The position numbers and the translations under genes are program-made. From Psychrobacter sp. 72-O-c (GTDB taxonomy: Bacteria; Pseudomonadota; Gammaproteobacteria; Pseudomonadales; Moraxellaceae), in NCBI RefSeq assembly GCF_904846605.1, contig NZ_CAJHBI010000019.1, positions 1 through 64,000 on the forward strand: a stretch of DNA of 64,000 bases, in the 5' to 3' direction. Under the pieces are notes generated by a model. The model searched no databases, had not been told where the DNA came from, and saw only the letters and a list, made by a program, of their open reading frames with translations. This document shows, piece by piece, positions 12,822-64,000 of this stretch; within the stretch, counting starts at the first letter, position 1, and each line of letters starts with the position of its first letter.

Positions 12822-14057
12822 ATGAAATTTTTACATAACATGTTCGATCGTATGGAGCCGTCCTTTACTAAGGGTGGCAAGCACGAAAAATATTATGCTC
12901 TCTTTGAGATGTTTGATACTTTTTTACGTCAACCAAGCTCAACGACTTTTACTTCATCACACGTACGTGATGGTATCGACCTTAAGCGTATTATGATCAC
13001 CGTATGGATGTGTACCTTCCCAGCCATGTTTTGGGGTATGTACAACGTCGGTCATCAAGCATTGACTGCCATAGCAGAGCTAGGTCTACAAGCTGATGGC
13101 TGGCGTACTATCGTCACCGGTATGGCAGGCTATAATCCAGATAGCATTTGGGCTTGCTTTGTCTATGGGGCCATGCAATTTTTACCGATTTATATCGTCA
13201 CTTTTGCAGTAGGTATTACATGTGAAATTATCTTTGCCGTGGTTCGCGGTCATGAAGTGAACGAAGGTTTCTTTGTAACCTCGGTACTGTATGCGTTGAT
13301 TATGCCGCCAGATATTCCATTATGGCAAGTCGCCTTGGGTATTATCTTCGGGGTAGTTGTGGCCAAAGAAGTCTTTGGCGGTACCGGTAAAAACTTCCTG
13401 AATCCTGCCCTATCGGGTCGTGCGTTCCTATATTTTGCCTATCCTGCCTATATCTCAGGTGACTCAGTATGGACCGCCGTTGATGGCTTCTCAGGAGCCA
13501 CGCCACTTGGCTTAGCTGCTCTTGGGGTGACACCAGAGAATTTTACTAATATCTATGGTCAAGCCATTACTTGGAGCGATGCCTTTTTTGGCAATATCCA
13601 AGGGAGTATTGGTGAAGTATCGACTTTTGCTATTTTATTTGGTGCCGCTGTTCTACTGTGGACGCGTATTGCCTCTTGGCGCATCATGTCAGGTTGTGTT
13701 ATTGGTCTGATTGCTACTTCACTTATCTTTAATATGATTGGTTCTGAAGACAACCTTATGATGAATCTGCCGTTCTATTGGCACTTGGTCATTGGTGGTT
13801 TTGCGTTTGGTGCGGTGTTTATGGCAACCGACCCTGTATCAGCTGCTCATACCAATAAAGGCCGCTGGGCTTATGGTATTTTGATCGGCTTTATGACCGT
13901 ATTAATTCGAGTAGTCAACCCAGCATTCCCAGAAGGCATCATGCTCGCTATTCTTTTTGCCAACTTATTTGCCCCCTTGTTTGACTATTTTGTCACCCAA
14001 GCAAATATCAAACGCCAAACTGCACGGAGGGTTCGCTATGTCCAAGCCCAAAAGTAA
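12822..14057 (+). CDS. nqrB: Na+-translocating NADH:quinone reductase subunit B
   Basis: Multi-spanning subunit carrying a covalent FMN, a riboflavin site and part of the Na+ path. 411 residues. The flavinylation motif SGAT is visible in [10 protein letters not shown] with the acceptor threonine at residue 227; ApbE (encoded downstream) attaches FMN there. Many hydrophobic helices run from about residue 55 to 400. The conserved [14 protein letters not shown] and [17 protein letters not shown] segments are present. Its last 20 bases overlap the start of nqrC, so translation is probably coupled. Confidence 0.97.
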
Positions 14058-50182: not shown

Positions 50183-50198
50183 TGTTTCACATGAAACA
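50183..50198. promoter_or_regulatory. parS-like site 1 (ParB binding)
   Basis: TGTTTCACATGAAACA, 15 of 16 matches to the canonical parS TGTTTCACGTGAAACA. Intergenic, between the epimerase and metallophosphoesterase genes, which share the minus strand. Confidence 0.8.
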
Positions 50199-50226
50199 AT
50201 GCCTATTTTACTGATTTACCCACTTA

Positions 50227-51207
50227 CTATTTCTGCTCTGCTAACGCTTGCTCAAGCGTTGGTTGCTTAAACTCATAACCAGCATCAAGTAAAGCTTGTG
50301 GCAGTACCTTCTGTCCATCAATTAACAGCGTCGACATCTCACCAAACATCAGCTTGAGTAAAAAATCTGGTAAAGTAAAAAACGTCGGGCGATGCAGCCA
50401 TGACCCAAGCGCTTTGGTGAAAGTACGATTAGTCACAGGATTGGGCGCAGTCAGGTTATACACCACCGCTGGCGTATCATTTTCTGTTATTAAAGTATTG
50501 TCATTAGTACTTGAGCTGCTGATCTTCTGCTCGTTGGTTTCTTCAGCAAGATGCTGCTCAATAATAAAGATAGCTGACCCTACCCAGTCATCACGGCTGA
50601 CCCAGCTCATGATTTGCTTGCCATCACCCAGTTGACCACCAACACCCATCTTAAAAGGCGTTAGAAGTTTACCGAGCATGCCACCGTCTGGATGCATGAC
50701 CACACCGGTACGCACGATAGCAACAGGCACACTATATTCAGTGGCTTTTAGCGCGAGCTGCTCCCACTCCTCACACAACTTGTGTGAAAAATCAGTCTCG
50801 GATTGACTACTTTCAGTTAACGACTTATCACCTTGCGTACCGTACCAACCAATCGCTGATCCACTAACTAATAGCTTAGGCTTAACGCTAGTACGAGCGA
50901 TAAACTCAAGTAGCGACTCTGTAGGCTTGATGCGACTGGCAAGCAGCGCCTCTTTGCGCTCATCGCTCCAACGCGAATCAGCGATACCAGCGCCCGCAAG
51001 ATTTAAGATAACGTCAAAGCTTTTATCCGTTTTTGTCAGCTCATCATACGTCATCATACTAACTGTACTGGGATGCGTCTGACTGCTATCGCGTGTTAGC
51101 CAGGTGATGTGTAAATCCTTATCCTGCGCAAGATAACGTTTTATAAGCTCATCACTGAACGCGCTACCCAAAAACCCGGATCCACCACTGATTAAAATAT
51201 TCATCAT
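50227..51207 (-). CDS. TIGR01777 family epimerase (YfcH/SULA-like)
   Basis: Extended SDR-type NAD(P)-binding protein, 326 residues. It has the ILISGGSGFLGSA dinucleotide motif at the N-terminus, NLAGAGIADSRW, the SGSAIGWYGTQGD active-site region, IVRTGVVM, and the C-terminal DUF1731-type helix domain (LLIDGQKVLPQALLDAGYEFKQPTLEQAL). E. coli YfcH is the namesake; the substrate is unknown. A Ser/Thr/Asn-rich insert lies about residues 225-250. AAGGATAAGAG precedes the two ATGs. Confidence 0.92.
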   Translation of the reverse strand: MMNILISGGSGFLGSAFSDELIKRYLAQDKDLHITWLTRDSSQTHPSTVSMMTYDELTKTDKSFDVILNLAGAGIADSRWSDERKEALLASRIKPTESLLEFIARTSVKPKLLVSGSAIGWYGTQGDKSLTESSQSETDFSHKLCEEWEQLALKATEYSVPVAIVRTGVVMHPDGGMLGKLLTPFKMGVGGQLGDGKQIMSWVSRDDWVGSAIFIIEQHLAEETNEQKISSSSTNDNTLITENDTPAVVYNLTAPNPVTNRTFTKALGSWLHRPTFFTLPDFLLKLMFGEMSTLLIDGQKVLPQALLDAGYEFKQPTLEQALAEQK

Positions 51208-51327
51208 CTCTTATCCTTATATTTTCTAGCGTTATTATATTGAGTGTGACAAAAAACGTGCTATAAAAACAAGAGTACAATTGTAGGGGTTAAAATATAA
51301 AAGAGTATTGGATATTGAAATGAAATG

Positions 51328-51990
51328 CTATCTAATGACTTGTCCCGTAAGCGCATCATGTATTTGGCTAGGTAACTCGTAACCTAACGTATCGCCTTGC
51401 AAATAAGCAACTTGCTGAGCAAACTCACTATTTATAAAATACCCTTGCGCCTGTGCTAACGATAATGCTGGCGGTTGTCCCGAAGGATTACAGCTGGTCG
51501 AAACAATAAAACCATAAGGATTGCTTGCTGAAACCATTTGTGCACACAGCTGTTGAATCAACGGATGAGCGATAACACGTACCGCTACGCTATCATGAGC
51601 ACCGGTAATCCAAGATGGAATCGGCACGCTAAGCGACTGAGATGATTGGGGTTGAGATAAAGGTAATAACCAAGTATGCGCTTGCTGGGCTACAACATTA
51701 GGCGAGATATGCCAACTGTCGAGGACGGTTTGGCGCTGTTCAGCACTTAAGCTCTCTAATAATGGCGCAATACGTGCCGCACTATCGGTCACTACAATCA
51801 TGCCTTTATCCATTGGGCGCTGTTTAATAGCAAGTAGCTGTTGTACTGCTAGCTGATTAAACGGATCACAGCCGATGCCCCACACGCTTTCGGTTGGATA
51901 AGTAAGTAACTGACCTACCTTTAAGCATTGAGTAGCTTGAGTGACAGAATTAGTCGTTAAAGCCGTGACTGGGAGCATGGATGATTTCAT
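51328..51990 (-). CDS. tsaC: L-threonylcarbamoyladenylate synthase, TsaC/YrdC
   Basis: Makes threonylcarbamoyl-AMP from threonine, bicarbonate and ATP for t6A37 in ANN-decoding tRNAs. YrdC domain: LLTYPTESVWGIGCDP, AIKQRPMDKGMIVV, VAVRVIAHPL, and SNPYGFIVSTSCNPSGQPPA, with the conserved K and R in the KxR signature. 220 residues from the ATG at 51990. The frame also offers TTG 52011 and ATG 51978, and none has a good ribosome binding site. The dprA-tsaC neighbourhood is common in gammaproteobacteria. Confidence 0.93.
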   Translation of the reverse strand: MKSSMLPVTALTTNSVTQATQCLKVGQLLTYPTESVWGIGCDPFNQLAVQQLLAIKQRPMDKGMIVVTDSAARIAPLLESLSAEQRQTVLDSWHISPNVVAQQAHTWLLPLSQPQSSQSLSVPIPSWITGAHDSVAVRVIAHPLIQQLCAQMVSASNPYGFIVSTSCNPSGQPPALSLAQAQGYFINSEFAQQVAYLQGDTLGYELPSQIHDALTGQVIR

Positions 51991-52080
51991 AGTGTACGGT
52001 TGAATTTTCAAAGAGAAGAATAAATGACATGTGGCAATAAGACTAAATAAACAAACATAGGAGTTTATTTAAATAGATAA

Positions 52081-53286
52081 CTAAACGCGTAAATAGCGTC
52101 CACCTTGTTCGCTGATAGCACCTAATAATTCAAGCTCCATCAGCTGGCCGATTAATTGCGGTGCCGTTAGTTCTGTGGATACCAGTAAGGCATCTAAATC
52201 TTGTCCGTGCCAATCAAGTTGCTTATAAACGACTTTTAAGTGTTCAGGGATAGCAACCTTAGAGGCGATACTGGTTTTTTGCTTATTGGTAAGCTGCTCA
52301 GTATTAGATTTGGATGAGGTATCTGCTGATTGGTTGAGTTCGATGCTTTTAAGATCGCTAGGATAAATATTAAGTTGTACGTTGACATCATCCAGTACCT
52401 GCTGCGGATGATATATCAAAGTTGCGCCTTCACGTATCAGATGATGACAGCCTTCAGCGTTACTATTATCGATATGGCTTGGGATAGCAAAGACTTGTTT
52501 GCCTTGGTCAGAGGTGAGCCGAGCAGTAATTAACGAGCCGCTTTTGATAGTTGCTTCAGTGACAATCGTTGCCAAACTGAGACCAGCAACCAAGCGGTTA
52601 CGCCGCGGAAAAGTATGCTTATGTGGCTGAGTGTGCGGCAATAGCTCACTGATTAGACAGCCACCTTGCTCAATAATTTGAGTAAATAAATGATCATGAT
52701 GGTTGGGGTAGCAAACATTAATACCGGTGCCCATCACCCCAACGGTGCGACCTTGGTATTCAGGATCAGCTTGAGCTAAAGCGCCGAAATGTGCGCGTTT
52801 ATCCACGCCCATAGCCAAGCCGCTAGTGATAATGTAGCCAGCTTGCGCCAAATACTGTGCTATATCAAAGGTAATTTTTTGCGCATGCGTGCTTGGCTTT
52901 CGGCTGCCAACGATAGCGATTTGCGCTTGATGTAGCAACGCACTATTACCACGATAAAATAGTAGCGGCGGTGGATCATAGATTTGTAGCAACTGCGCAG
53001 GATAGTCAGGCTGATCAGCAAAAAGCAGCTGGTATTTATCAGCTCTTAATGCCTTCTCGATAGTATCGATGCTGGTTAGAGTCTGCTCTTGCTGCTCGTG
53101 ACGCTTAATATGACTAGGATGAATACCCAGTTGTCGCCACGCTTCAACCTTGGCCGTCCATGCTTGCTGCGCGCTACCAAAGGTAGTAACCAGCTTATGG
53201 TAAGCGGATAATGACGCATTCACCTCATGCCACAGCGCCAATACGGCGCGCTGGTTATCGGATATAGGAGTTGAGTTTGCCGTCAT
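52081..53286 (-). CDS. dprA: DNA-processing protein DprA
   Basis: Loads RecA onto incoming single strands in natural transformation. 401 residues: an N-terminal SAM-like domain, the Rossmann fold (IAIVGSRKPSTHAQKI, SGLAMGVDKRAHFGAL, VMGTGINVCYPNHH, FPRRNRLVAGLS, VTEATIKSGSLITA), and a C-terminal winged helix (LLVSTELTAPQLIGQLMELELLGAISEQGGRY). A long polar linker with Ser/Thr/Asn (about residues 320-345) joins them. Together with comM it suggests competence. Confidence 0.95.
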   Translation of the reverse strand: MTANSTPISDNQRAVLALWHEVNASLSAYHKLVTTFGSAQQAWTAKVEAWRQLGIHPSHIKRHEQQEQTLTSIDTIEKALRADKYQLLFADQPDYPAQLLQIYDPPPLLFYRGNSALLHQAQIAIVGSRKPSTHAQKITFDIAQYLAQAGYIITSGLAMGVDKRAHFGALAQADPEYQGRTVGVMGTGINVCYPNHHDHLFTQIIEQGGCLISELLPHTQPHKHTFPRRNRLVAGLSLATIVTEATIKSGSLITARLTSDQGKQVFAIPSHIDNSNAEGCHHLIREGATLIYHPQQVLDDVNVQLNIYPSDLKSIELNQSADTSSKSNTEQLTNKQKTSIASKVAIPEHLKVVYKQLDWHGQDLDALLVSTELTAPQLIGQLMELELLGAISEQGGRYLRV

Positions 53287-53376
53287 AGTTGCTTAGCTCT
53301 CATTGGCTGAATCGTGTTTACTGACTTGTATTGCTTGGCTCTTATTAGTAGCTGGTAGATTAGAGCTTATAAACGC

Positions 53377-54474
53377 CTATAAATAAGGGGGCGGTAGCAG
53401 TTGGTCACCGACATTAAGTGGCAGCTCAGAGTTGAGTACATAAGCATAGCTGATATTATCAAAAGTATTAAATACCATCACCATGCCGCTAGGCTCACTT
53501 GGTAAGCGTACTGGCGTGTCATTATCTAAAATATCGCGTACTAACGGCCCTTTTTGATATACCGTCAACACATCCCCTGGTTTGGCACCGTGACTGCTAC
53601 CTAAATTAATAGCGACCACACCACCACGCGCCGCTGAGCTGATTGAATCCATTACTCGCACAATCATGCCGCCACGATTGACAGTCGCAGGCGTAGGATA
53701 AAATACCGGTGGGATCGAGTTGTCCAGCTCAACAAATACCCGATCACCTTCACGGACTTCTTTGCCATAAGATTCGATGAGCTGTATGCTGGTCACGCCG
53801 TTACTTTCCGTAGAAGTGACCAAGCCAGTCGCCACTTGCGTCACTTCTAAACCGATGACTTCTTTGGTCTTAGGCTCAACGTACATCTCACCTTCACGGT
53901 AGACACCATAACGCTGACCAATGATAAGCGGTACGCCCTTAGCATAGACTTTGTCACCGCTCGCCGTAATCAGATTGCGATTTTTGGAGGCTAAGATATA
54001 AGGCGTGGTATTAAAGTCTTTTGGATTGACAATGATTGTTTTGTCTAACCAATGCCGAATGGCTGACATCGGAATGGCAGGAATACTATTGGCAGTGGAT
54101 GTGACCGTTACGGTGCTGGTGACCACATTACCAATCAGTTGTTTTTCTACCCCTGCGCAGCCTTCTCCCGTATCGACACCGATCAAAGTCTTACCTTGAA
54201 TCACGCATAAGATAAGAATGTCGTTGGGATAAATGAGGTTGGGATTTTTGATTTGTTTATTGGTCGCCCAAATCTCTTTCCAACGCCATGCACTGTCTAA
54301 GTAGCGCCCTGAGATATCCCACAAGGTATCGCCTTTTTTGACAATATAGCGATTGGGAGCATCCGCTTTGATAGTTGGTGACGGATTATTAGCGTAGGCA
54401 GTGGTCAACAGCAGCGCACTACTAAAGGCAGTCATCAGCAGCGCTTTTGCCATGGCGTTTAGACTTATTTTCAT
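53377..54474 (-). CDS. LysM-domain peptidoglycan-binding protein
   Basis: 365 residues from the ATG at 54474. The signal peptide (about residues 1-29, cut after AYA) is followed by a LysM domain, residues about 40-90 (YIVKKGDTLWDISGRYLDSAWRWKEIWATNKQIKNPNLIYPND). A beta-rich domain follows with a GDRVFVELDNSI and GAKPGDVLTVYQKG pattern. Equivalent to the PA0020-type LysM gene near dprA in Pseudomonas. Its role in the envelope is inferred. GGA is one base before the ATG at 54480 and seven before 54474, so I chose the second. Confidence 0.9.
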   Translation of the reverse strand: MKISLNAMAKALLMTAFSSALLLTTAYANNPSPTIKADAPNRYIVKKGDTLWDISGRYLDSAWRWKEIWATNKQIKNPNLIYPNDILILCVIQGKTLIGVDTGEGCAGVEKQLIGNVVTSTVTVTSTANSIPAIPMSAIRHWLDKTIIVNPKDFNTTPYILASKNRNLITASGDKVYAKGVPLIIGQRYGVYREGEMYVEPKTKEVIGLEVTQVATGLVTSTESNGVTSIQLIESYGKEVREGDRVFVELDNSIPPVFYPTPATVNRGGMIVRVMDSISSAARGGVVAINLGSSHGAKPGDVLTVYQKGPLVRDILDNDTPVRLPSEPSGMVMVFNTFDNISYAYVLNSELPLNVGDQLLPPPYL

Positions 54475-54733
54475 TATCATGTCCGTAATGGGTAAGGGTT
54501 AGCACTAGCGCTGTTGGAGTTGATTGTAATCAATCATCATCAACTATTTATAGAACGCTTTTTTTATCTGGACCTGTTCTTACAGCGATATCTGAACCAA
54601 AGTGCCAGCTACTGCTTTTTGAATTTACGATGATATGAACAATAGCACAATATTAAACACTTTTTTACAAAAGCGTAACTTTTATTACAGCAAGTTTTTG
54701 ACCTTAAACTAACTCAGATTAGACCTATTACTT

Positions 54734-54771
54734 AATGAAGACTTAGTTTCACGTGAAACTAAGTCTTCATT
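54734..54771. repeat. Perfect 38-bp palindrome behind thrC
   Basis: The left half (54734-54752) is the exact reverse complement of the right half (54753-54771), with no central spacer. The central 14 bases are the consensus parS GTTTCACGTGAAAC. The outer arms (AATGAAGACTTA and its complement) would give a long hairpin in RNA at the thrC 3' end. No T-run follows, so it is not a classical terminator. Confidence 0.9.
54745..54760. promoter_or_regulatory. parS-like site 2
   Basis: AGTTTCACGTGAAACT, a perfect palindrome with the consensus 14-base parS core, inside the 38-bp palindrome behind thrC. Confidence 0.85.
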
Positions 54772-54791
54772 GTCAGAACAGCTTTTTAACT

Positions 54792-56213
54792 TTAAGCTGG
54801 GTTTGCTTTAACATACTGACGTATTTGCTCAGCGACCAGCTCAGCTTTATTATCTAAAATAACCACGTGCTGAGGCAAATCCTCTAAGCCTTCGGTGTGC
54901 GCTGGACGCGCAATATCCATCGGACCAATAGCTTCAATAATAGTCTCGGCAAATTTAACCGGCAGCGCAGTCTCTGCACAGATAATAATCTCGCCGTCTT
55001 GCTGTAATTCTTTCGCCACTTTAATTCCATCAGCTGTATGTGGATCAACCAGCTCACCATGCTGCTCATAGAGTGCTTTTATAGTTTGTAGACGGTCAGT
55101 ATGGGTAGATTTACCCGCAGCAAAGCCATAACGAGAATTGACCGCTTCCATTAGATCAGACAAATCAAAACCTTGACCTGACTTCACTCCTTCAAATAAC
55201 TCATGAACCCGTGCACTGTCTTTATCTAGCAGTAGATAAACAAAACGCTCAAAGTTGGACGCTTTAGAGATATCCATGGATGGGCTGGAGGTTATATGAG
55301 TTTGATCAGTCGGACGTGGCTGATAGGCCCCTTTATTAAAAAAGTCATTGAGCACATCATTTTCATTGGTAGCGACTATCAAGCGTCCAATCGGCAAGCC
55401 CATTTCGCGGGCAATATGTCCAGCACAAATATTACCAAAGTTACCTGATGGAATGCTAAAACTAACTTGCTCATCATTACTGCTGGTCACTGCAAAATAA
55501 GCTTTAAAGTAGTAAACAATCTGCGCAAGGATGCGTCCCCAGTTAATAGAGTTAACCGTACCTAAATTGTAGGCCGCTTTGAATTCAGCATCTTGCTGCA
55601 AAGCTTTGACAATATCTTGGCAATCATCAAACATGCCGTCAATAGCGATATTATGAATATTATCATCAGTCAGGCTATACATCTGCGCGCGCTGAAACTC
55701 ACTCATCTTGCCATGGGGAGATAGCATAAAAACTTCAATATTGTCTTTACCGCGTAGCGCATATTCCGCCGCACTGCCGGTATCACCACTGGTCGCGCCA
55801 ATAATGGTAATACGCGCCTCTTTTTTCTTCAGCACATATTCAAAGGCATTGCCTAAAAATTGCATTGCGACATCTTTAAACGCTAGCGTTGGCCCATTAG
55901 ATAAGCCTAAAATGTGAATATCATTTTCAAGCTTGCGAACAGGGGTAATCTCAGCGTTGCCAAATACCTCAGTGGTATAAGTACGTTCAATAATATCTTG
56001 TAAATCAGCAGCAGGGATATCAGTGGCAAAGCGTTGCATAATTGCCATCGCTAGCTTTGGATAGCTGAGCGTGCGCCATTCGTCAAGTACAGTCCTATCA
56101 ATATGCGGATAATGCTCAGGCAGCATTAGGCCACCATCGGGTGCAAGCCCCATTAACAGCACATCACTAAAGTCCATTGGCTTAGTTTGACCACGGGTAC
56201 TAATATACTTCAT
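54792..56213 (-). CDS. thrC: Threonine synthase
   Basis: PLP enzyme converting O-phosphohomoserine to threonine. 473 residues, the long class. Segments: MKYISTRGQTKPMDFSDVLLMGLAPDGGLMLPE, the PLP lysine in TLAFKDVAMQFLGNAFEY, GATSGDTGSAAEYAL, HGKMSEFQRAQM, SGNFGNICAGHIAR. The start at 56213 fits the family's usual N-terminus. It stands between rsmB and the LysM gene, all on the minus strand. Confidence 0.96.
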   Translation of the reverse strand: MKYISTRGQTKPMDFSDVLLMGLAPDGGLMLPEHYPHIDRTVLDEWRTLSYPKLAMAIMQRFATDIPAADLQDIIERTYTTEVFGNAEITPVRKLENDIHILGLSNGPTLAFKDVAMQFLGNAFEYVLKKKEARITIIGATSGDTGSAAEYALRGKDNIEVFMLSPHGKMSEFQRAQMYSLTDDNIHNIAIDGMFDDCQDIVKALQQDAEFKAAYNLGTVNSINWGRILAQIVYYFKAYFAVTSSNDEQVSFSIPSGNFGNICAGHIAREMGLPIGRLIVATNENDVLNDFFNKGAYQPRPTDQTHITSSPSMDISKASNFERFVYLLLDKDSARVHELFEGVKSGQGFDLSDLMEAVNSRYGFAAGKSTHTDRLQTIKALYEQHGELVDPHTADGIKVAKELQQDGEIIICAETALPVKFAETIIEAIGPMDIARPAHTEGLEDLPQHVVILDNKAELVAEQIRQYVKANPA

Positions 56214-56262
56214 AGCGCTTCCCTACCTACAATGATTTTATTTTAACGGTATCTTTCTTAAA

Positions 56263-57855
56263 TTAAGCTGTTTTATGTAGCAGCGCATAATAAAAGCCGT
56301 CGCCACTTTCACTGTCTATTGGCAAACATTGACGACCGATTTCTTGAGCAATACCCCAACTACAATCTTCGGTAAATTCGATAGCAGTAGCATCGGTATG
56401 ATGGTTTAAAAATGCTTGCATCTGTTCTACGTTTTCTTGCTTTAATATCGAGCAGGTTACGTAAAGCAAATAACCACCGACTTTCAATTGTGGCCATAGA
56501 TTGTCTAATATCTCTTCCTGTAATGACGCCGTTTGATCCACGTCTTCTTCTGTACGTAAAAGACTGATATCAGGATGGCGACGAATTACGCCAGTAGCGG
56601 TACAAGGTGAATCGAGTAATATAGCGTCAAATACAGGTTCATTTTTATCTACTTTTTGCTTTTTAGATTCCTGGATGCCCTGCCATCTGGTCGCATCAGC
56701 ACAGACGACATTAAGCTTAATTTGCTCAGAGTGTTCTAAATGTAAACGCTCTAGATTTTCATGAATGCGACCAATACGCGGGGCTTCATTATCAATAGCG
56801 GTTAGTTTAATCGCACGACTTTCTACCGAATTATTTATATCACCACTTTCATTTTCACTAGGTTTCACATGAAACAATGAGGACTGCTTGTCTGCATTTA
56901 ACAGCTCTAACCAATGGGCAAGCTTACCACCAGGAGCAGCGCAAGCATCTAAAATATGCAGCTCGGTATTACTGGTTTGGTTGGCATCGCCATTGTTATC
57001 ATTAATAGCATCAGCATTTGCCTTATTGATAAGCGCTTGGTGAATCAGTGGTGCAGCAAGCTGGGCATGCATATCTTGCACACTAGCAGCACCTTCCGCA
57101 AATGAGGGTAGACCACTAACGGCTGTAGTTTGCTCTAAACGTAACGCTTGGGTTGTTATAGTAGTATCCGTTTTATCGGTCAGATTTGGCAGTTGTAAAC
57201 CACTAACCACTTCGACCAATTCGGCTTCAACATCTGCTTGCTCTAGCGCTTGTTGATAGCCGTCCACAGTATTAATAGTGGTATTCACTCGTAAAAACAT
57301 CGGTGCGGGCTGACGTAATCCTTGAGTTAATGCTGAGTATTCCTCACTCCAATCTTGCTTGAGCTGATAGGCGAGCCAATTAGGCAAGCTGTGGTTTTTA
57401 TCGCATTTCTTACGGAATTTGTTAGTGTTCTTAACGACTTTACGTAAAATAGCATTAACTAAGCCGGATGCATGGGCAAAATCAATCTCTTTAACCGCTT
57501 CAACCGTTTCATGAATCGCGGCATGGTCAGCCACTTCCAAATATAACAGCTGGGTTAGCCCCACTTGAATGGTAGTGCGGACTTCAATCTCATCGATATT
57601 GTTATCTGCTAAAGTATCAAGTAGGCGCTCAAGAGCATACCACTGACGCAAAGTAGTCAACAGTAGCGCATGCGCAAAGCCTTTATCACCCTCGTGTAGA
57701 CTGTTTAATAAAGGATCAAGTACACTCGATAACGACTGGCCATTCTGGATGGCAAGTAAGGTACGAATAACGCGCACCCGCACGCTGCCGGTCATTTTAA
57801 GATTACTGGAAGGCTTATTTTTGTTGTTTCTAGACGCGGTTGCGGGTTGTCTCAT
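56263..57855 (-). CDS. rsmB: 16S rRNA (cytosine(967)-C5)-methyltransferase
   Basis: Methylates C967 of 16S rRNA. 530 residues against 429 in E. coli. Order: an N-terminal NusB-like domain (VRVIRTLLAIQNG, GLVNAILRKVVKN), then the Rossmann methyltransferase with DACAAPGGKLAHWLELL (motif I), LDSPCTATGVIRRHPDI (catalytic Cys) and YVTCSILKQENVEQM (second Cys). Extra length comes from inserts: NANDNNGDANQTSN-like before motif I, and about 25 residues between motif I and the next strand that include LFHVKP. The LFHVKP codons are the parS site at 56861-56876. Confidence 0.94.
   Translation of the reverse strand: MRQPATASRNNKNKPSSNLKMTGSVRVRVIRTLLAIQNGQSLSSVLDPLLNSLHEGDKGFAHALLLTTLRQWYALERLLDTLADNNIDEIEVRTTIQVGLTQLLYLEVADHAAIHETVEAVKEIDFAHASGLVNAILRKVVKNTNKFRKKCDKNHSLPNWLAYQLKQDWSEEYSALTQGLRQPAPMFLRVNTTINTVDGYQQALEQADVEAELVEVVSGLQLPNLTDKTDTTITTQALRLEQTTAVSGLPSFAEGAASVQDMHAQLAAPLIHQALINKANADAINDNNGDANQTSNTELHILDACAAPGGKLAHWLELLNADKQSSLFHVKPSENESGDINNSVESRAIKLTAIDNEAPRIGRIHENLERLHLEHSEQIKLNVVCADATRWQGIQESKKQKVDKNEPVFDAILLDSPCTATGVIRRHPDISLLRTEEDVDQTASLQEEILDNLWPQLKVGGYLLYVTCSILKQENVEQMQAFLNHHTDATAIEFTEDCSWGIAQEIGRQCLPIDSESGDGFYYALLHKTA
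56861..56876. promoter_or_regulatory. parS-like site 3, inside rsmB
   Basis: GGTTTCACATGAAACA; the 14-base core differs from consensus parS at one central base. It lies in a non-conserved coding insertion of rsmB (LFHVKP). Confidence 0.75.
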
Positions 57856-57899
57856 ATTAATTAATTTCCTATGCCTATTAAGGCGTCTGTGTTTACTTA

Positions 57900-58982
57900 T
57901 TAGTTTGAATTATTGGTAAATTGATCGTTATCATTAAGCTGATTGCCATGACAAATTTGCTCGGCAGTCACTGGCTTGCTACCGGCAAACTGCAATTTAG
58001 TTATCGCTAAGGTGCTGGCTGGCTGATTTATATTGTCTACTTGCTGTTTGTCTTTACCGCACGCAACCAAAATAGCTTTACGTCCGACACTGATAACGGT
58101 TCCGGCAGGTTTAGTGGTTTGCTGGGTCGTATTGACAGGTAGGCTGGCTAAAATCTTGACGCGCTGTCCCTCTAAAAAGGTATAAGCGCCCGGCCATGGG
58201 GTTAGTCCGCGGATTTGCCTTTCAATTACAGTAGCCGATTGTGACCAGTCAATAGCGCCTTCTGTTTTGATGAGTTTTTCGGCATAATTAGCCTCATTGT
58301 CATCTTGGACTATAGCCCTCGTTTGATAATAATTTAGGTCTTGTAGCACGGTGCTGATAGCAGTCGCGCCTAACTCTGCCAGCTTATCATGGAGACTGGC
58401 TGCGCTGTCGTTAGACTCAATCGCACAGCTGACGTTATAAAGCATGTCACCGGTATCTAACCCTTTATCCATCTGCATAATGGTAATACCCGTCTGAGCG
58501 TCTCCGGCTAATAATGCCCTGTGAATGGGCGCCGCGCCGCGCCAGCGTGGTAATAAGGAAGCGTGAATATTCAAGCAGCCGTAAGTAGGCGTGGTCAAAA
58601 CCCCAATAGGCAATATCAACCCGTAAGCGGCAACGACCATCACGTCCGATTGATAAGTTCTCAAGGTTTGTCTAGCAGCTATGCCTTCGGTCACTGACTT
58701 TTTAAAGGTATCAGGTTGTTCAACAGGAATGTCATGAGCCAGTGCGACTTGCTTAACAGCAGAGGTTGATAGTTTTTGTCCGCGTCCCGCCTTACGATCC
58801 GGCTGGGTATATACTGCCACAATATCTATATTAAGCGCTTCTTGCTGACTGACTAGTGCCTCAAGGCTAGTGGCAGCAAACTCTGGGGTACCCGCAAACA
58901 CCACTCGCAATCGGCTGGTAACTTGCGGGTTCTGAGTAGTGGGGGCAGTAGATAAGTCGGAAGAGGAAGCAATTATAGTCAT
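57900..58982 (-). CDS. fmt: Methionyl-tRNA formyltransferase
   Basis: Formylates Met-tRNAfMet with 10-formyl-THF to make the initiator. 360 residues, against 315 in E. coli; the extra residues are an N-terminal tail of about 25 (TIIASSSDLSTAPTTQN) and a C-terminal tail. Motifs: VVFAGTPEFAATSLEAL, the catalytic NIHASLLPRWRGAAPI with Asn/His, and GLDTGDML with Asp; the C-terminal domain contains GLTPWPGAYTFL. No def gene next to it. It is upstream of rsmB in the same direction, as in other gammaproteobacteria. Confidence 0.95.
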   Translation of the reverse strand: MTIIASSSDLSTAPTTQNPQVTSRLRVVFAGTPEFAATSLEALVSQQEALNIDIVAVYTQPDRKAGRGQKLSTSAVKQVALAHDIPVEQPDTFKKSVTEGIAARQTLRTYQSDVMVVAAYGLILPIGVLTTPTYGCLNIHASLLPRWRGAAPIHRALLAGDAQTGITIMQMDKGLDTGDMLYNVSCAIESNDSAASLHDKLAELGATAISTVLQDLNYYQTRAIVQDDNEANYAEKLIKTEGAIDWSQSATVIERQIRGLTPWPGAYTFLEGQRVKILASLPVNTTQQTTKPAGTVISVGRKAILVACGKDKQQVDNINQPASTLAITKLQFAGSKPVTAEQICHGNQLNDNDQFTNNSN

Positions 58983-59170
58983 AGCAGCGTATTATGTATT
59001 ATTAATCCACCTATTATAGGTGAGTTTACGGCGTTGTGCCATGATTGTAATAGCGCTTGATAGGCGTCAATAATGATAAAGCTTATCTTTATTATAGAAT
59101 AGGTATGAATGATGAGCGCTTTGTAATAAGTTCACTGTATTTTGGTATACCGCTATAGGATCATGCATCC

Positions 59171-62101
59171 ATGCAACAGTTTCAATCTCTACAACGCTTA
59201 CTGTTCTTTTATACCCTGACGCTGATAATCATGTTGTCGTTATACTATGTGGTGATGTTTCTTGACCTCAAAACGCACAGTAAGCAGCATACTACAAGTA
59301 TCTTTAATTCTTTACAGTATGAGCTTATCGAACAGGATGAGCCCACCGATACGGACATTAAGAAAATATTACAGAAGCCTATTTTCCAAGATATCAGTTA
59401 TCAGCTGGTTTTTATGCTGCCATCTGGTCAGACTTACGTCCATCGCTATACCCGTCCTCATGAGGCTGAATTTACTACCGTTAACTTCCCTACCCTTGCT
59501 TCGCCGTTCGTCAATAGTGTCGGCAATAGTAATAGCGCTTATACCCTTACTAACAGTGCTTTAGCAGGCACTATCAAGCTTGAAAGTGGTCATCAAGTAT
59601 ACACAGTACTGCGCCATCAACCGCCTGAAATAAATTGGATCTTTTATCGTTTTTGGCTGCCATTAATGACGGCGATTATACTCTTTATCATCGCACTACT
59701 TTACATGCTCAACCGTCGTACCAATTGGGAACAGCTGTTACTCTATACCGATAACTTGAACAGCGCTGCGAAAAAGGCTTACACACCGCCACCATTTATT
59801 GAAAAAAAAGCGACCACTGAGTTTTTACGCTTGGGGCATGCCCTTAGTCGTATCAGTTATCAGCTACATAATAATAATCGACGCATTAAAACGCTCAACC
59901 ATCGGCTTGAGCGCTTGGTCGATCAAGCACCGCTACCCATGCTGATGGTAATGCGTCACGGGCAGGTCAGCTTTTTTAATCAGCGTTTCGAGCAAGTATT
60001 TGCCACCTCATTCCAGCCTAATGCAAATTATCAACTGACTGACTTTGTCACTGGTAACGATGAATCGACCCAGCTCCTACTACAGGAACTATCTACCCAG
60101 CGCGTCACCCGTACGTTACTGGTCTACGGCATAGCGAACGAGCAAGCCTATCAGCTACATATCACTCCTTGGTTCGGCGAGCATGGGCAAGTTCATGGCT
60201 TTACCGTGCTCCTCAATAGTGTCGACGATTTTGTCAATCAGACTAAGATCTTACAACAACAAAACCAGCAGCTACAACGACAGCTTAGCGAATTTAGCCA
60301 GCTTAGATCCGTCATTGGTCATGAGCTGCGCCCTCCGTTAGATGCCATTATTGGCATACTGGAGCAGATAGATACCGATACTTTATCTGCTAAACAGGAT
60401 GAAGTACTGACCACGTTAACGCAGTCTAGCCATTCTATGCTAGCGATGCTCAATGATATGCTAGATATAGCAAATATAGAGGCAGGAAAAACTCATATTA
60501 TTAATGAGCCTGTAGATATTTTTAAACTTGGACAACATGTTAGTCATTTAATGACAGACAATACACGTCGGCAAGGACTTGAGTTACTGTATTTTTTTGC
60601 ACCCGATTGTCCGCGCTATATTGATACAGATAGCAATCGTTTGCGTCAAATCTTACTTAATTTATTAGATAGCGCCATACAATTTACCACCTCAGGTTAT
60701 GTCGCACTTGTCATCGAACCTGTTACCACTAAAAATCGGACACAAACACAAGAACAAAAAGAGGAAGGCGGATCAACGTTTGGCGCTCATGATATCAAAG
60801 CTCATAATGTCAAAAAAGACAACCCGCAACATTGGGTTCGCTTTAGCATACAAGATACAGGAATAGGTATAGTGCCTGCTAGGCAACAGCAGCTGTTTGA
60901 TTATTTTAATAAAACCAATAACCAAACCAGCCAGCAATTTGCTGATATCGGACTGGCCTTGGCTACTTCTAATAGTTTCGCTCAGTTATTAGGCGGCTTT
61001 ATTGAGCTTGACAGTACCTTTGATAACAACCGCTCTAATGAAGTTAACACCTTTACGCTCTACTTACCCTGTCGCCGTCCCAATTATCAGCCGGTATATC
61101 ATTTCAATACTAACTTAACTCACATTCACCTTATTGCGATCGTCAATCAAACACTTTTCGCCACCAATCTGCGACGTCTGTGTCACTATTTATCAATACC
61201 TGCCACTATTTATACTGCGGCAGACATAGCGAGCAGTCAACAGTTAACAGACCAGCTGGCGCAAAACATACAAACGCTGGCGCCTATATTACTTTTAGAT
61301 TATGAATATTATGAGATCAGCGCCATAGTGTTATCTGAAGGCTCAGAAGATAGCAGTAGTAGTAGTAGTAGTAGTAGTAGGATAACTCCTAAAGAAGTGA
61401 GTCATAAAGAAGTAAATTATAAGAGAACAAATTATAAGAGAACAAATTATAAAAGTACAAGCGACAAAGCAGCGATTAATGCTAATGCCCGGCAAGTGTT
61501 AGACAGTCTATTGAACCGCTCATCGTTACCCAAAATACTCCTTAGCATGAAGCCTGAGCGCAGTATACCTTCTACGCTACTGGATCAGTTTGACGGTTTT
61601 TTAAGCAAGCCCTTAGATAGCGCCTTACTGCTATCCGAGTTGCTGCGCCTAACCCAACCAATAAAACAGAAACAAAATAATCAGGGTGCTGAACCAGCAA
61701 CAGCGCTGAACAGTCCTATAGAAGAAGTATTAGCACCGCTGATTCTAGTAGTAGAGGATAGCCGAACCAATCAAAAAATCACCTGCAAATTATTAAGTAA
61801 ATTAGGCTATCGCAGTATGGTGGCAGAAGATGGTCAGCAAGCTTTAGATCAGCTACAAGTTCAGCGCCAAGAAATTGCACTAATCTTAATGGACTGCCGA
61901 ATGCCCGTTATGGATGGCCTGCAGGCCACCCAAGCTATTCGCGCACAAGGGGATGATATTCCTATCGTGGCGCTCACTGCGAACAACACTGAACAGGATC
62001 GTGAAGATTGTTTTGCGGTAGGAATGGATGAGTTTTTATCCAAACCTATTGATAAAAGTAACCTACAAGCCGTTTTACAACATTTGATTAAAGCTGGTTA
62101 G
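59171..62101 (+). CDS. Hybrid sensor histidine kinase / response regulator
   Basis: Membrane two-component protein of the GacS/BarA type, 976 residues. Membrane helices at about 10-28 and 160-180 flank a periplasmic sensor; a PAS-like region follows (about 245-360), then a phosphoacceptor helix VIGHELRPPLDAIIG with the His. The ATPase domain has an altered N-box (LLDSAIQFT, where Asn is expected at the Ser), DTGIGI intact, and a degenerate G2 box (ADIGLALA). A degenerate receiver-like stretch, a repeat-rich linker (Ser run and NYKRT repeats), then an intact C-terminal receiver (LVVEDSRTN, LMDCRMPVMDG, ALTAN, LSKPI). No HPt domain. AGGAT precedes the ATG. Signal and partner unknown. Confidence 0.9.
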   Translation: MQQFQSLQRLLFFYTLTLIIMLSLYYVVMFLDLKTHSKQHTTSIFNSLQYELIEQDEPTDTDIKKILQKPIFQDISYQLVFMLPSGQTYVHRYTRPHEAEFTTVNFPTLASPFVNSVGNSNSAYTLTNSALAGTIKLESGHQVYTVLRHQPPEINWIFYRFWLPLMTAIILFIIALLYMLNRRTNWEQLLLYTDNLNSAAKKAYTPPPFIEKKATTEFLRLGHALSRISYQLHNNNRRIKTLNHRLERLVDQAPLPMLMVMRHGQVSFFNQRFEQVFATSFQPNANYQLTDFVTGNDESTQLLLQELSTQRVTRTLLVYGIANEQAYQLHITPWFGEHGQVHGFTVLLNSVDDFVNQTKILQQQNQQLQRQLSEFSQLRSVIGHELRPPLDAIIGILEQIDTDTLSAKQDEVLTTLTQSSHSMLAMLNDMLDIANIEAGKTHIINEPVDIFKLGQHVSHLMTDNTRRQGLELLYFFAPDCPRYIDTDSNRLRQILLNLLDSAIQFTTSGYVALVIEPVTTKNRTQTQEQKEEGGSTFGAHDIKAHNVKKDNPQHWVRFSIQDTGIGIVPARQQQLFDYFNKTNNQTSQQFADIGLALATSNSFAQLLGGFIELDSTFDNNRSNEVNTFTLYLPCRRPNYQPVYHFNTNLTHIHLIAIVNQTLFATNLRRLCHYLSIPATIYTAADIASSQQLTDQLAQNIQTLAPILLLDYEYYEISAIVLSEGSEDSSSSSSSSSRITPKEVSHKEVNYKRTNYKRTNYKSTSDKAAINANARQVLDSLLNRSSLPKILLSMKPERSIPSTLLDQFDGFLSKPLDSALLLSELLRLTQPIKQKQNNQGAEPATALNSPIEEVLAPLILVVEDSRTNQKITCKLLSKLGYRSMVAEDGQQALDQLQVQRQEIALILMDCRMPVMDGLQATQAIRAQGDDIPIVALTANNTEQDREDCFAVGMDEFLSKPIDKSNLQAVLQHLIKAG
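61355..61458 (+). repeat. Microsatellite and 15-bp tandem repeats in the kinase linker
   Basis: AGT repeated eight times and a partial unit (61355-61380) encodes a serine run. A 15-bp unit AAATTATAAGAGAAC occurs at 61414-61428 and 61429-61443, with a near copy at 61444-61458, encoding NYKRT repeats. All units are multiples of three, so copy-number change alters linker length but not frame. Confidence 0.9.
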
Positions 62102-62176
62102 CAGCTTATATAATCAGTTCACAATAAACAATAAAAGGGAGTCGTGTATAGCAACGTGCTCCTAGTATAAATTTTT

Positions 62177-62238
62177 CTTGCGTGCTGTTCGCAAGCGGGA
62201 CAGAGGCTGCAAAAATTCATGCCAGTAGCACTGTCTCG
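62177..62238. repeat. Double hairpin element between the kinase and ribE genes
   Basis: CTTGCG/CGCAAG with a 7-base loop (62177-62195) is followed directly by a second palindrome CGGGACAG (62196-62203) with CTGTCTCG (62231-62238), 7 of 8 pairing, around about 27 bases. It lies between convergent genes. Terminator or dispersed palindromic repeat; copies elsewhere in the genome are not tested. Confidence 0.5.
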
Positions 62239-62340
62239 TTTTAAAATAATTTAACCATATTAACAATCTACCCATACTAATAAAGGCTATTATGCCAGCG
62301 GTCTTGTTCACTACTTTATAAAGCTTTTTATTTTATAAAG

Positions 62341-63015
62341 TTACTTCATAAAGCCGTTATCTGCTAAAAAATTCTCGGTAATCTTGCTTTGCGGACTGGG
62401 CGCGTTCATGGTTCCGGTTTGCGATTTATTTAATAGACGCTCTAAGTAGCGTGCCACAATATCTACTTCAATATTAATCTTACTACCTAACAGCCAATGC
62501 TTGGCAATATTGGTAACCTGAGCTGTATGGGGAATAATATTCAAACAGACAATATTGTCCCGTACTAGATTGGTCGTCAGACTAATACCATCGAGTGTGA
62601 TAGATCCTTTAGTCGCAGTATAGTGCGCCAACTCTTGCGGTAATTCGATTTCTATATAAATAGAGCGCGCATCTTTTTCAAGCTTACTCACGACGCCGAC
62701 ACCATCAACATGACCGGCAACAATGTGCCCACCAAAACGGGTAGTCGGTAGCATGGCTTTTTCTAAATTGACCAAATGACCTGATTTTAAGTCCTCTAGT
62801 GCAGTACGAGCGATAGTTTCACGTGAAACATCGACGGCATAATAATTACTACCTAAATCCACGACGGTCAAACAAATACCATTTGAAGCAATAGAGTCGC
62901 CTAATGACACATCGCTAAAGTCCAAATCATCGGATTCAATCGTTAAACGAATATCACCACCAACTGGCTGCATAGCTTTAACTTTGCCCACACTTTCGAT
63001 AATCCCTGTAAACAT
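62341..63015 (-). CDS. ribE: Riboflavin synthase subunit alpha
   Basis: Dismutates two 6,7-dimethyl-8-ribityllumazines to riboflavin. 224 residues with the two internally repeated lumazine-binding barrels: MFTGIIESVGKV ... NGICLTVVDLGSNYYAVDVSRETIARTALEDLKSG, and GGHIVAGHVDGVGVV ... GSITLDGISLTTN ... LNIIPHTAQ. The frame is open to 63054, but AGAGGGTC precedes the ATG at 63015, the universal MFTGI start. The DVSRET codons contain a consensus parS core. Same strand as ribD, which lies upstream across a 573-base DnaA-box spacer. Confidence 0.96.
   Translation of the reverse strand: MFTGIIESVGKVKAMQPVGGDIRLTIESDDLDFSDVSLGDSIASNGICLTVVDLGSNYYAVDVSRETIARTALEDLKSGHLVNLEKAMLPTTRFGGHIVAGHVDGVGVVSKLEKDARSIYIEIELPQELAHYTATKGSITLDGISLTTNLVRDNIVCLNIIPHTAQVTNIAKHWLLGSKINIEVDIVARYLERLLNKSQTGTMNAPSPQSKITENFLADNGFMK
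62815..62830. promoter_or_regulatory. parS-like site 4, inside ribE
   Basis: AGTTTCACGTGAAACA: the 14-base consensus parS core is intact. It lies in the conserved DVSRET codons of ribE. Confidence 0.85.
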
Positions 63016-63248
63016 ATGACCCTCTTTTTCTTGTTTAGTGATAACTATCAACATTTTATAACTGATAATTGGTGTTAACTGCTTATTAGCATAGCACTAG
63101 ATACGTATATCAATAACAAAATCTATCAATCATGACTATTGGCTATCCTAGCAATCTACTGTTGCTAAATTATTTAACTGAGTGAAGTACTATACTCAAT
63201 TGGATTTTACGGCACCTTTCGTTTGATAAGTAGAATATTTGAGATAAG

Positions 63249-63258
63249 TTGTGGATAA
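63249..63258 (-). promoter_or_regulatory. DnaA box (TTATCCACAA)
   Basis: Perfect consensus on the minus strand; first of the cluster. Confidence 0.8.
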
Positions 63259-63308
63259 CTAAGCATTATTTACCCTTTTTCACCTTAAAAATCTTCGTTT
63301 CAATAAAG

Positions 63309-63318
63309 TTATCCACAA
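63309..63318 (+). promoter_or_regulatory. DnaA box (TTATCCACAA)
   Basis: Perfect consensus on the plus strand; a weaker copy (CTATCCACT) follows at 63320. Confidence 0.8.
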
Positions 63319-63424
63319 GCTATCCACTTATTAATACATAAAGGAGTAGATATAGGAATACCTCGTTAAACTAATGATTAATAAAGGATTATTCCAGAAT
63401 AACTTCAATTATCAACTATTTATA

Positions 63425-63440
63425 AGTTTCATGTGAAACA
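63425..63440. promoter_or_regulatory. parS-like site 5
   Basis: AGTTTCATGTGAAACA: the same one-base variant core as sites 1 and 3, in the opposite orientation. Intergenic, in the DnaA-box cluster. Confidence 0.8.
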
Positions 63441-63453
63441 CAGTTATAAAAAG

Positions 63454-63462
63454 TTATACACA
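63454..63462 (+). promoter_or_regulatory. DnaA box (TTATACACA)
   Basis: Fits TTATNCACA. It abuts parS-like site 6. Confidence 0.65.
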
Positions 63463-63477
63463 GTTTCATGTGAAACC
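63462..63477. promoter_or_regulatory. parS-like site 6
   Basis: AGTTTCATGTGAAACC, 21 bases after site 5. The first base is shared with the preceding DnaA box. Confidence 0.75.
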
Positions 63478-63505
63478 TTATTTGAAGTACCCTAAAATGA
63501 CCTAG

Positions 63506-63514
63506 TTATCCACA
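63506..63514 (+). promoter_or_regulatory. DnaA box (TTATCCACA)
   Basis: Perfect consensus, plus strand. Confidence 0.8.
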
Positions 63515-63537
63515 TTTACTATAGAAATTGACGACAC

Positions 63538-63563
63538 TGTGGATAACTAAACACTTATACACA
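63538..63563. promoter_or_regulatory. Pair of DnaA boxes
   Basis: TTATCCACA on the minus strand (63538-63546) and TTATACACA on the plus strand (63555-63563), 8 bases apart, divergently oriented, just after the ribD stop on the minus strand. Confidence 0.75.
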
Positions 63564-63588
63564 GATGATTTTTATATTTTAGAAGTTT

Positions 63589-64000
63589 TTAGAATGGCAG
63601 CAGAGTTAGTTTTAGGTCAGTACCCACTTGCTCGTGGCTATGATAGTCAAAGCGCAACTGCTGTGCTAAAGATAAGGGGTTAAAATCAATCATAGGCCGT
63701 GCTTGTGCCCCCAATAGACAAGGTGCTTGATAGACAATCAATTCATCTACCAGCTGTTGGCTTAAAAAGCTCCCTGCGACGGTAGCTCCAGCTTCTATCA
63801 ACACATCATAGCAATGATGCTCGCTCACCAACGATTTCAGTAACTCGATCAAATCATCGTTACGCCAATAGAGCGTATCTACACGTCGGCATAACTGATA
63901 CGCAGACTGTAAATCATGTGCTAAGCGTGCGCGTCTATCGAGCACCACCACCATAGGGGTAGGAATTTGCTCCAGTTCCACACCTAATTGACTAGAACGC
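63589..64000 (-). CDS. ribD: RibD: riboflavin biosynthesis protein, C-terminal part (5' end cut by window)
   Basis: Bifunctional pyrimidine deaminase/reductase; only the end of the reductase domain is inside the window. The frame stays open to the right edge, reading RSSQLGVELEQIPTPMVVVLDRR, which fits the DDPxLTVR..RxPxxVVLDR pattern of RibD. Then VLIEAGATVAGSFLSQQLVDELIVYQAPCLLGAQARPM, the conserved substrate-binding segment, and a short C-terminus. It precedes ribE across the DnaA-box spacer. Confidence 0.93.
   Translation of the reverse strand, partial: RSSQLGVELEQIPTPMVVVLDRRARLAHDLQSAYQLCRRVDTLYWRNDDLIELLKSLVSEHHCYDVLIEAGATVAGSFLSQQLVDELIVYQAPCLLGAQARPMIDFNPLSLAQQLRFDYHSHEQVGTDLKLTLLPF

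Follow-up and report, generated by a model that had tools for sequence, protein, structure and literature searches.

Why should the gap between two genes, ribE and ribD, in a Psychrobacter chromosome hold consensus sites for both the replication initiator DnaA and the segregation protein ParB, one of each directly abutting the other? The question is raised by a stretch of DNA from Psychrobacter sp. 72-O-c (contig NZ_CAJHBI010000019.1, here C19; the genome of 3.22 Mb is in 81 contigs), of which the first 64,000 of 65,462 bases were analysed as 'the window'. A preliminary description of the window, made from its sequence alone, had reported six palindromes like parS, the site recognized by ParB, and had taken the right-hand end of the window to be an origin-proximal segregation centre. 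We find that the two right-most palindromes are interleaved with six DnaA boxes and a site resembling that of integration host factor (IHF), in a composite element that is widely conserved in the genus.

A composite of DnaA boxes, an IHF-like site and parS

The composite lies in the intergenic region at 63055..63588, between ribE (62341..63054, minus strand), which encodes riboflavin synthase (NCBIfam TIGR00187, over cut-off), and ribD (63589..64000, minus strand), which extends beyond the window end and is followed on the contig by nrdR. From the left, it begins with an inverted pair of TTATCCACA boxes 59 bp apart (box 1, 63250..63258, minus strand; box 2, 63309..63317, plus strand), followed by an IHF-consensus-like site (WATCAANNNNTTR, one mismatch; 63367..63379, minus strand; consensus as in PMC10380432). 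Then come two exact parS-like palindromes GTTTCATGTGAAAC, at 63426..63439 and 63463..63476, the second of them fused to DnaA box 3 (TTATACACA, 63454..63462, plus strand), which ends at the base before it. Beyond them are box 4 (TTATCCACA, 63506..63514, plus strand), box 5 (TTATCCACA, 63538..63546, minus strand) and box 6 (TTATACACA, 63555..63563, plus strand), so that both parS sites sit between DnaA boxes. Exact matches to TTATNCACA number six within these 314 bp (63250-63563), with one more on the rest of the 65-kb contig. The preliminary description had reported the two parS sites here; the interleaved array of DnaA boxes and IHF-like site at 63250-63563 had gone unnoticed.

How general is this arrangement? 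In 21 genomes the ribE–ribD gap contains three to six exact boxes and two or three parS sites, compared with shuffle means of 0.015-0.125 boxes and no parS, and an alignment of 28 gaps revealed little conservation beyond the boxes, the parS sites and a short IHF-like core. In an unselected set (36 congeneric RibE matches, of which the best 30 were used, our own genome included), the inverted box 1/box 2 pair occurs at 57–59 bp in all 30 congeners, and box 3 abuts parS in 28, the other two being cut by contig ends. When 15 genomes were added, mostly picked for holding the fusion, the pair was present in 45/45 and the abutment in 40/45. The two parS sites are 27 bp apart in 35 genomes and 37 bp apart in five, a difference of about one helical turn. 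An exact IHF-like site is found at an offset of 54–59 from box 2 in 18/43 congeners (0.02 expected from shuffles), and one with at most one mismatch in 34/43 (0.65 expected).

The fused box and parS make a 23-bp sequence, TTATNCACAGTTYCAYRTGRAAC, which at no more than one mismatch is present in 98 of 105 congeners, in 10 of 22 genomes of a second genus (g31) and in none of the 172 others of the family; the backward control gave no match in 299 genomes. Its position was checked in 40 congeners and three g31 genomes, and the latter showed the same box–parS abutment, with pair spacings of 47, 48 and 59. Of 80 named ribE loci, the five from Psychrobacter all carry parS and boxes in the 700 bp upstream. 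The five best named RibE relatives also come from Psychrobacter, at 72–89% identity. In the closed genome of a near relative, G002 (RibE 97% identical), groups of at least three TTATCCACA within 400 bp occur only at oriC (four) and between ribE and ribD (three).

Six parS-like palindromes

All six palindromes of the preliminary description exist, as exact 14-bp matches to GTTTCAYRTGAAAC, although each had been placed one base too low. Besides the two in the composite, they are at 50184..50197 (GTTTCACATGAAAC, intergenic), 54746..54759 (GTTTCACGTGAAAC, intergenic, downstream of thrC and upstream of a LysM gene), 56862..56875 (GTTTCACATGAAAC, within rsmB) and 62816..62829 (GTTTCACGTGAAAC, within ribE), giving two genic and four intergenic sites. 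In 100 dinucleotide shuffles of the window there was no exact match, against the six observed. As had been claimed, the other 50 kb holds no further exact GTTTCAYRTGAAAC; the only other matches in the window at up to three mismatches, at 13215 and 14866, both have three. A whole-genome search, as proposed in the preliminary description, found 16 sites on five of the 81 contigs (six on C19, five on C35, three on C42 and one each on C47 and C2; one match in the backward control).

By consensus, these palindromes look like chromosomal docking sites for ParB. Could they instead be targets of another regulator, or chance repeats? The published parS is mainly TGTTNCACGTGAAACA, according to the available text of a review (PMC7022226), and only the sites at 54746 and 62816 have its CACGTG centre; the other four are one base away from that core (CACATG/CATGTG), and ParB binding is predicted here. 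However, two of the six match the published parS over the whole 14 bp, shuffles yielded none, the sites are centred on the origin in the relatives listed, and ParB is encoded together with ParA. We therefore regard both alternatives as very improbable. The cluster is in itself ordinary. The GTTTCAYRTGAAAC form is not general in the order: Acinetobacter portensis (G320) has a single site, about 81 kb away from dnaA, and G066 and Pseudomonas sp. KUIN-1 have none. Presumably these three may use a GTTCC form of parS.

The left arm of a parS domain beside oriC

The view of the right-hand end of the window as an ori-proximal segregation centre was well founded, because parS sites cluster around dnaA in closed relatives, but oriC itself is outside the window, at rpmH–dnaA on contig C35. 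There, dnaA is flanked on one side by dnaN, recF and gyrB and on the other by rnpA, yidC and mnmE (neighbours named by eye from translations), and C35:26776–27010 contains four exact TTATCCACA at a point where the 4-kb GC skew switches sign. Contigs C19 and C35 have no exact overlap of 16–300 bases, and their order is taken from G002 and other relatives: the order ribE–ribD–nrdR–mnmE–yidC–rnpA–(oriC)–dnaA–dnaN is kept in the stretches of 20 relatives (selected mostly for holding the box–parS fusion), with ribE and dnaA 7.0–9.4 kb apart. By synteny, then, the right-hand end of the window is the left arm of the predicted chromosomal parS domain, ending about 6–7 kb left of oriC.

Equal density of the motif along the chromosome, which the preliminary description had named as a refuting result, was not what we found: in relatives the motif is concentrated around dnaA. 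G002 has 16 parS sites between −37 and +100 kb relative to dnaA, a span of 4.3% of its chromosome. Five of the window's six sites have counterparts there in the same positions, 7-16 kb to the left of dnaA; the site at 50184 has no exact counterpart there. The corresponding figures are 13 sites from −20 to +38 kb (2.4%) in G028 and 12 sites from −68 to +117 kb (5.8%) in G035, and the parS span of G124 (genus g31) is 11.1% of the chromosome. The farthest site among those listed for congeners, a listing that excludes the sites of G004 and part of those of G029, is about 158 kb from dnaA (G022).

In the 20 stretches, every 1-kb bin of mean GC skew is negative between −9 and −1 kb of dnaA and positive between −1 and +3 kb (−0.026, then +0.047, beyond +3 kb), with gene orientation contributing to the values. 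The sign is unchanged across the ribE–ribD element and switches at rpmH–dnaA, and for this reason we place the usual origin there, outside the window. In 19 of the 20 genomes the 505 bp or so upstream of dnaA contain two to five DnaA boxes, and none of the 20 rnpA–dnaA gaps contains parS. In one stretch (L085, from G270) the DnaA alignment covers just 768 bases and the match lies 2.2 kb from rnpA, unlike the other 19; the cause may be an inserted sequence, divergence at the end or faulty assembly.

parA and parB are far away

Nor are parA and parB missing from the genome, the other refuting result that had been named. ParB_N has a single match in it, on contig C1, which carries no parS, and the ParB gene is preceded by open reading frames (ORFs) for ParA and RsmG (named by eye from translations). 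The same RsmG–ParA–ParB trio occurs in G002, A. portensis and G066. Its distance from the origin is large: as a percentage of the chromosome, parB is 36.8 from dnaA in G002, 40.6 in G028, 45.5 in G035 and 37.6 in G004, 29.9 and 32.2 in two g31 genomes (G065 and G124), 47.2 in G062 (of genus g28; contig treated as a circle whose origin is at the end that carries rnpA) and 42.0 in A. portensis, compared with 0.1 in Pseudomonas sp. KUIN-1. The range of 30–47% rests on eight closed or nearly closed genomes, and G066 was excluded from the count because its dnaA was not located. In four congeners parB is about 1.0-1.4 Mb from dnaA; it is also more than 1 Mb away in G022, G029 and G031, and on a separate contig in G012.

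In the available text of the review cited above, par operons are said to sit in the ori domain, the 20% of the chromosome around oriC (PMC7022226). The remote parB runs counter to this published rule, which describes a usual rather than a defining feature of ParABS systems. In other respects the system resembles the chromosomal ParABS of Pseudomonas aeruginosa and Bacillus subtilis, with parS palindromes of the familiar consensus, above chance in number and clustered around oriC, and parA–parB present behind rsmG; it departs from the usual centromere in the distance of parB and in the abutment of one parS on a DnaA box.

How might the composite act?

Two known loci offer models. The datA locus of Escherichia coli has DnaA boxes and one IHF site, and the bend is thought to gather bound DnaA (PMC10380432, in the part available). 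Our element is likewise intergenic, ori-proximal and outside oriC, with DnaA boxes and an IHF site assigned by consensus only; unlike datA, it carries parS, is about 7 kb from oriC and is surrounded by other genes. The rctA locus of Vibrio cholerae chromosome II flanks the origin and joins initiator sites with parS, as ours appears to do (again by consensus only), and ParB2 at parS2-B, inside rctA, relieves the inhibition of the initiator by this locus, as described in the accessible portion of PMC3141006. Unlike rctA, our element is on the main chromosome and not adjacent to parAB, and the initiator concerned would be DnaA, not RctB.

Putting these together, we favour, as an evenly balanced proposition, the reading that the ribE–ribD composite is an ori-flanking, datA-like regulator of DnaA, gated by ParB, within the left parS arm. 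DnaA would bind the inverted box pair and the parS-abutting box, and IHF would bend the AT-rich stretch of about 110 bp between them, bringing the DnaA molecules together and leading to their titration or inactivation, in the manner of datA. Once loaded at the flanking pair of parS sites, ParB might compete with the DnaA complex or rearrange it, the two proteins competing or cooperating at the fused site, so that initiation at oriC would come to depend on the segregation loading of the origin region, as at rctA. It is a more tentative step, and a somewhat doubtful one, to propose that Psychrobacter and some of its relatives thereby possess a main-chromosome switch, in which DnaA and ParB share a fused box–parS within a DnaA-regulating site, bent by IHF, about 7 kb away from oriC and initiation is physically coupled to segregation. 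As parAB lies in the distal chromosome, such a switch may substitute for the customary linkage between parAB and oriC.

Several observations weigh against this interpretation. Of 43 congeners, nine have no IHF-like site at this offset, nor do any of the three g31 genomes read, and the fusion (at most one mismatch) is absent from 7 of 105 congeners and 12 of 22 g31 genomes. Exact abutment has been lost in G035, G240 and G028 (the last being one of the seven congeners without the fusion), with boxes and parS retained; G091, of g31, has neither parS nor an exact TTATNCACA within 1.4 kb upstream of ribE, and the two g28 genomes read carry parS and boxes in a different layout. In the more distant congener G035, three TTATCCACA also fall within 230 bp at a third place. 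Because the genomes share ancestry, the counts do not represent independent events; the set of 45 was partly selected, and most divergent congeners are missing from it. What we observe is the sites themselves, how they are conserved, spaced and located, and how remote parAB is; from this we infer protein binding, titration or inactivation, and gating by ParB. Finally, the stretch from box 2 to parS is AT-rich (mean 0.749, compared with 0.675-0.688 elsewhere in the gap), a feature that keeps a second origin under consideration.

Among the papers listed in the literature searched, which left subscription journals mostly outside, none dealt with the oriC, parS or DnaA boxes of a Psychrobacter or Moraxella chromosome, and none with a fusion between a DnaA box and parS. 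Nor have we seen described there either a conserved main-chromosome element that combines DnaA boxes with an IHF-like site and parS or, in this family, a parAB so far from its parS. On chromosomes driven by DnaA, the coupling of replication with segregation is described mainly in terms of protein contacts, Soj–DnaA and ParB–DnaA, and the mechanism of the latter is called unclear (PMC7022226, available text). A conserved element with fused DnaA and ParB sites would allow the coupling to be tested directly by point mutation, and the displaced parAB offers a natural setting in which to ask what usually keeps par operons near oriC.

Other explanations

The main rival is that the ribE–ribD array is the second half of a split origin, looping to rpmH–dnaA or firing alone under some conditions. 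Its conserved DnaA boxes, IHF-like site and AT-rich stretch are all oriC-like, and B. subtilis and Helicobacter pylori are known to have bipartite origins, in which two clusters of DnaA boxes lie near dnaA (PMC4285127, in the part available). The spacer in those cases, however, is usually dnaA itself, and the whole origin extends up to about 2 kb (same source), whereas here the two clusters are separated by about 7 kb and five named genes (ribD, nrdR, mnmE, yidC and rnpA). Moreover, between −9 and +3 kb of dnaA the mean skew, confounded as it is by gene orientation, switches at only one of the clusters, rpmH–dnaA, which has boxes of its own. Because of the long multi-gene spacer and the skew we rate a split origin as rather unlikely, below the datA-like reading.

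Might the element raise ATP-DnaA rather than lower it, as a reactivating site of the DARS type? DARS2 likewise joins DnaA boxes with IHF sites, yet a DARS site requires three core boxes arranged in a particular way (both from the available part of PMC10380432), and the boxes here extend across 314 bp; near recA, a pair of boxes (see below) gives the impression of being closer to such a core. We consider a DARS-like role improbable, and about equally so the idea that this is a plain parS cluster whose DnaA boxes merely regulate transcription of ribE or ribD. The gap is directly upstream of ribE, and DnaA is a known regulator of transcription (PMC8203912, part available), but the distance from the boxes to the start of the ribE match varies from about 49 to 658 bp in 21 genomes while the internal spacings hold, which makes a role at the ribE promoter unlikely, and no box or parS was found within 700 bp upstream of ribE at any of 75 named loci from outside Psychrobacter.

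Gene setting and minor observations

From 42.8 kb on, the genes are mostly leftward, as had been noted: 13 of the 15 of at least 100 aa point that way (a nested ORF being excluded). The block fmt-rsmB-LysM-dprA-tsaC of the preliminary description is present, except that thrC is interposed between rsmB and the LysM gene. Matches to fmt, rsmB, thrC and dprA pass the NCBIfam cut-offs, and those of LysM and TsaC miss them. Beside the composite, a large gene resembling those for hybrid sensor histidine kinases (59171-62101) runs rightward amid the mostly leftward block; none of the 25 NCBIfam models shown for it was over cut-off. No RNA element, riboswitches included, matched Rfam at gathering score in 42000–64000.

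In a series of Acinetobacter loci (L119-L133) ribD starts about 2.4-3.8 kb from ribE, leaving room for an extra gene between them, and no boxes or parS were found within 700 bp upstream of ribE.

The end of C19 contains the start of an ORF (L016:3400-3462) and the end of C35 an ORF end (L018), which together we take to resemble an IS630-type transposase. Since the contig ends carry the start and end of such an ORF, an insertion element probably lies between nrdR and mnmE in this genome; in G002 the nrdR–mnmE gap is about 110 bp.

Between recA-like and trmB-like genes (named by eye), a tandem pair of TTATCCACA 12 bp apart is followed by a TATGGGG/AATGGGG-like sequence (L208:1594-1614, equivalent to G000:C22:41593-41613; also L209, L210 and L211), with similar copies in G002 and, twice, in G035. 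Our impression is that this pair might be a DARS-like core.

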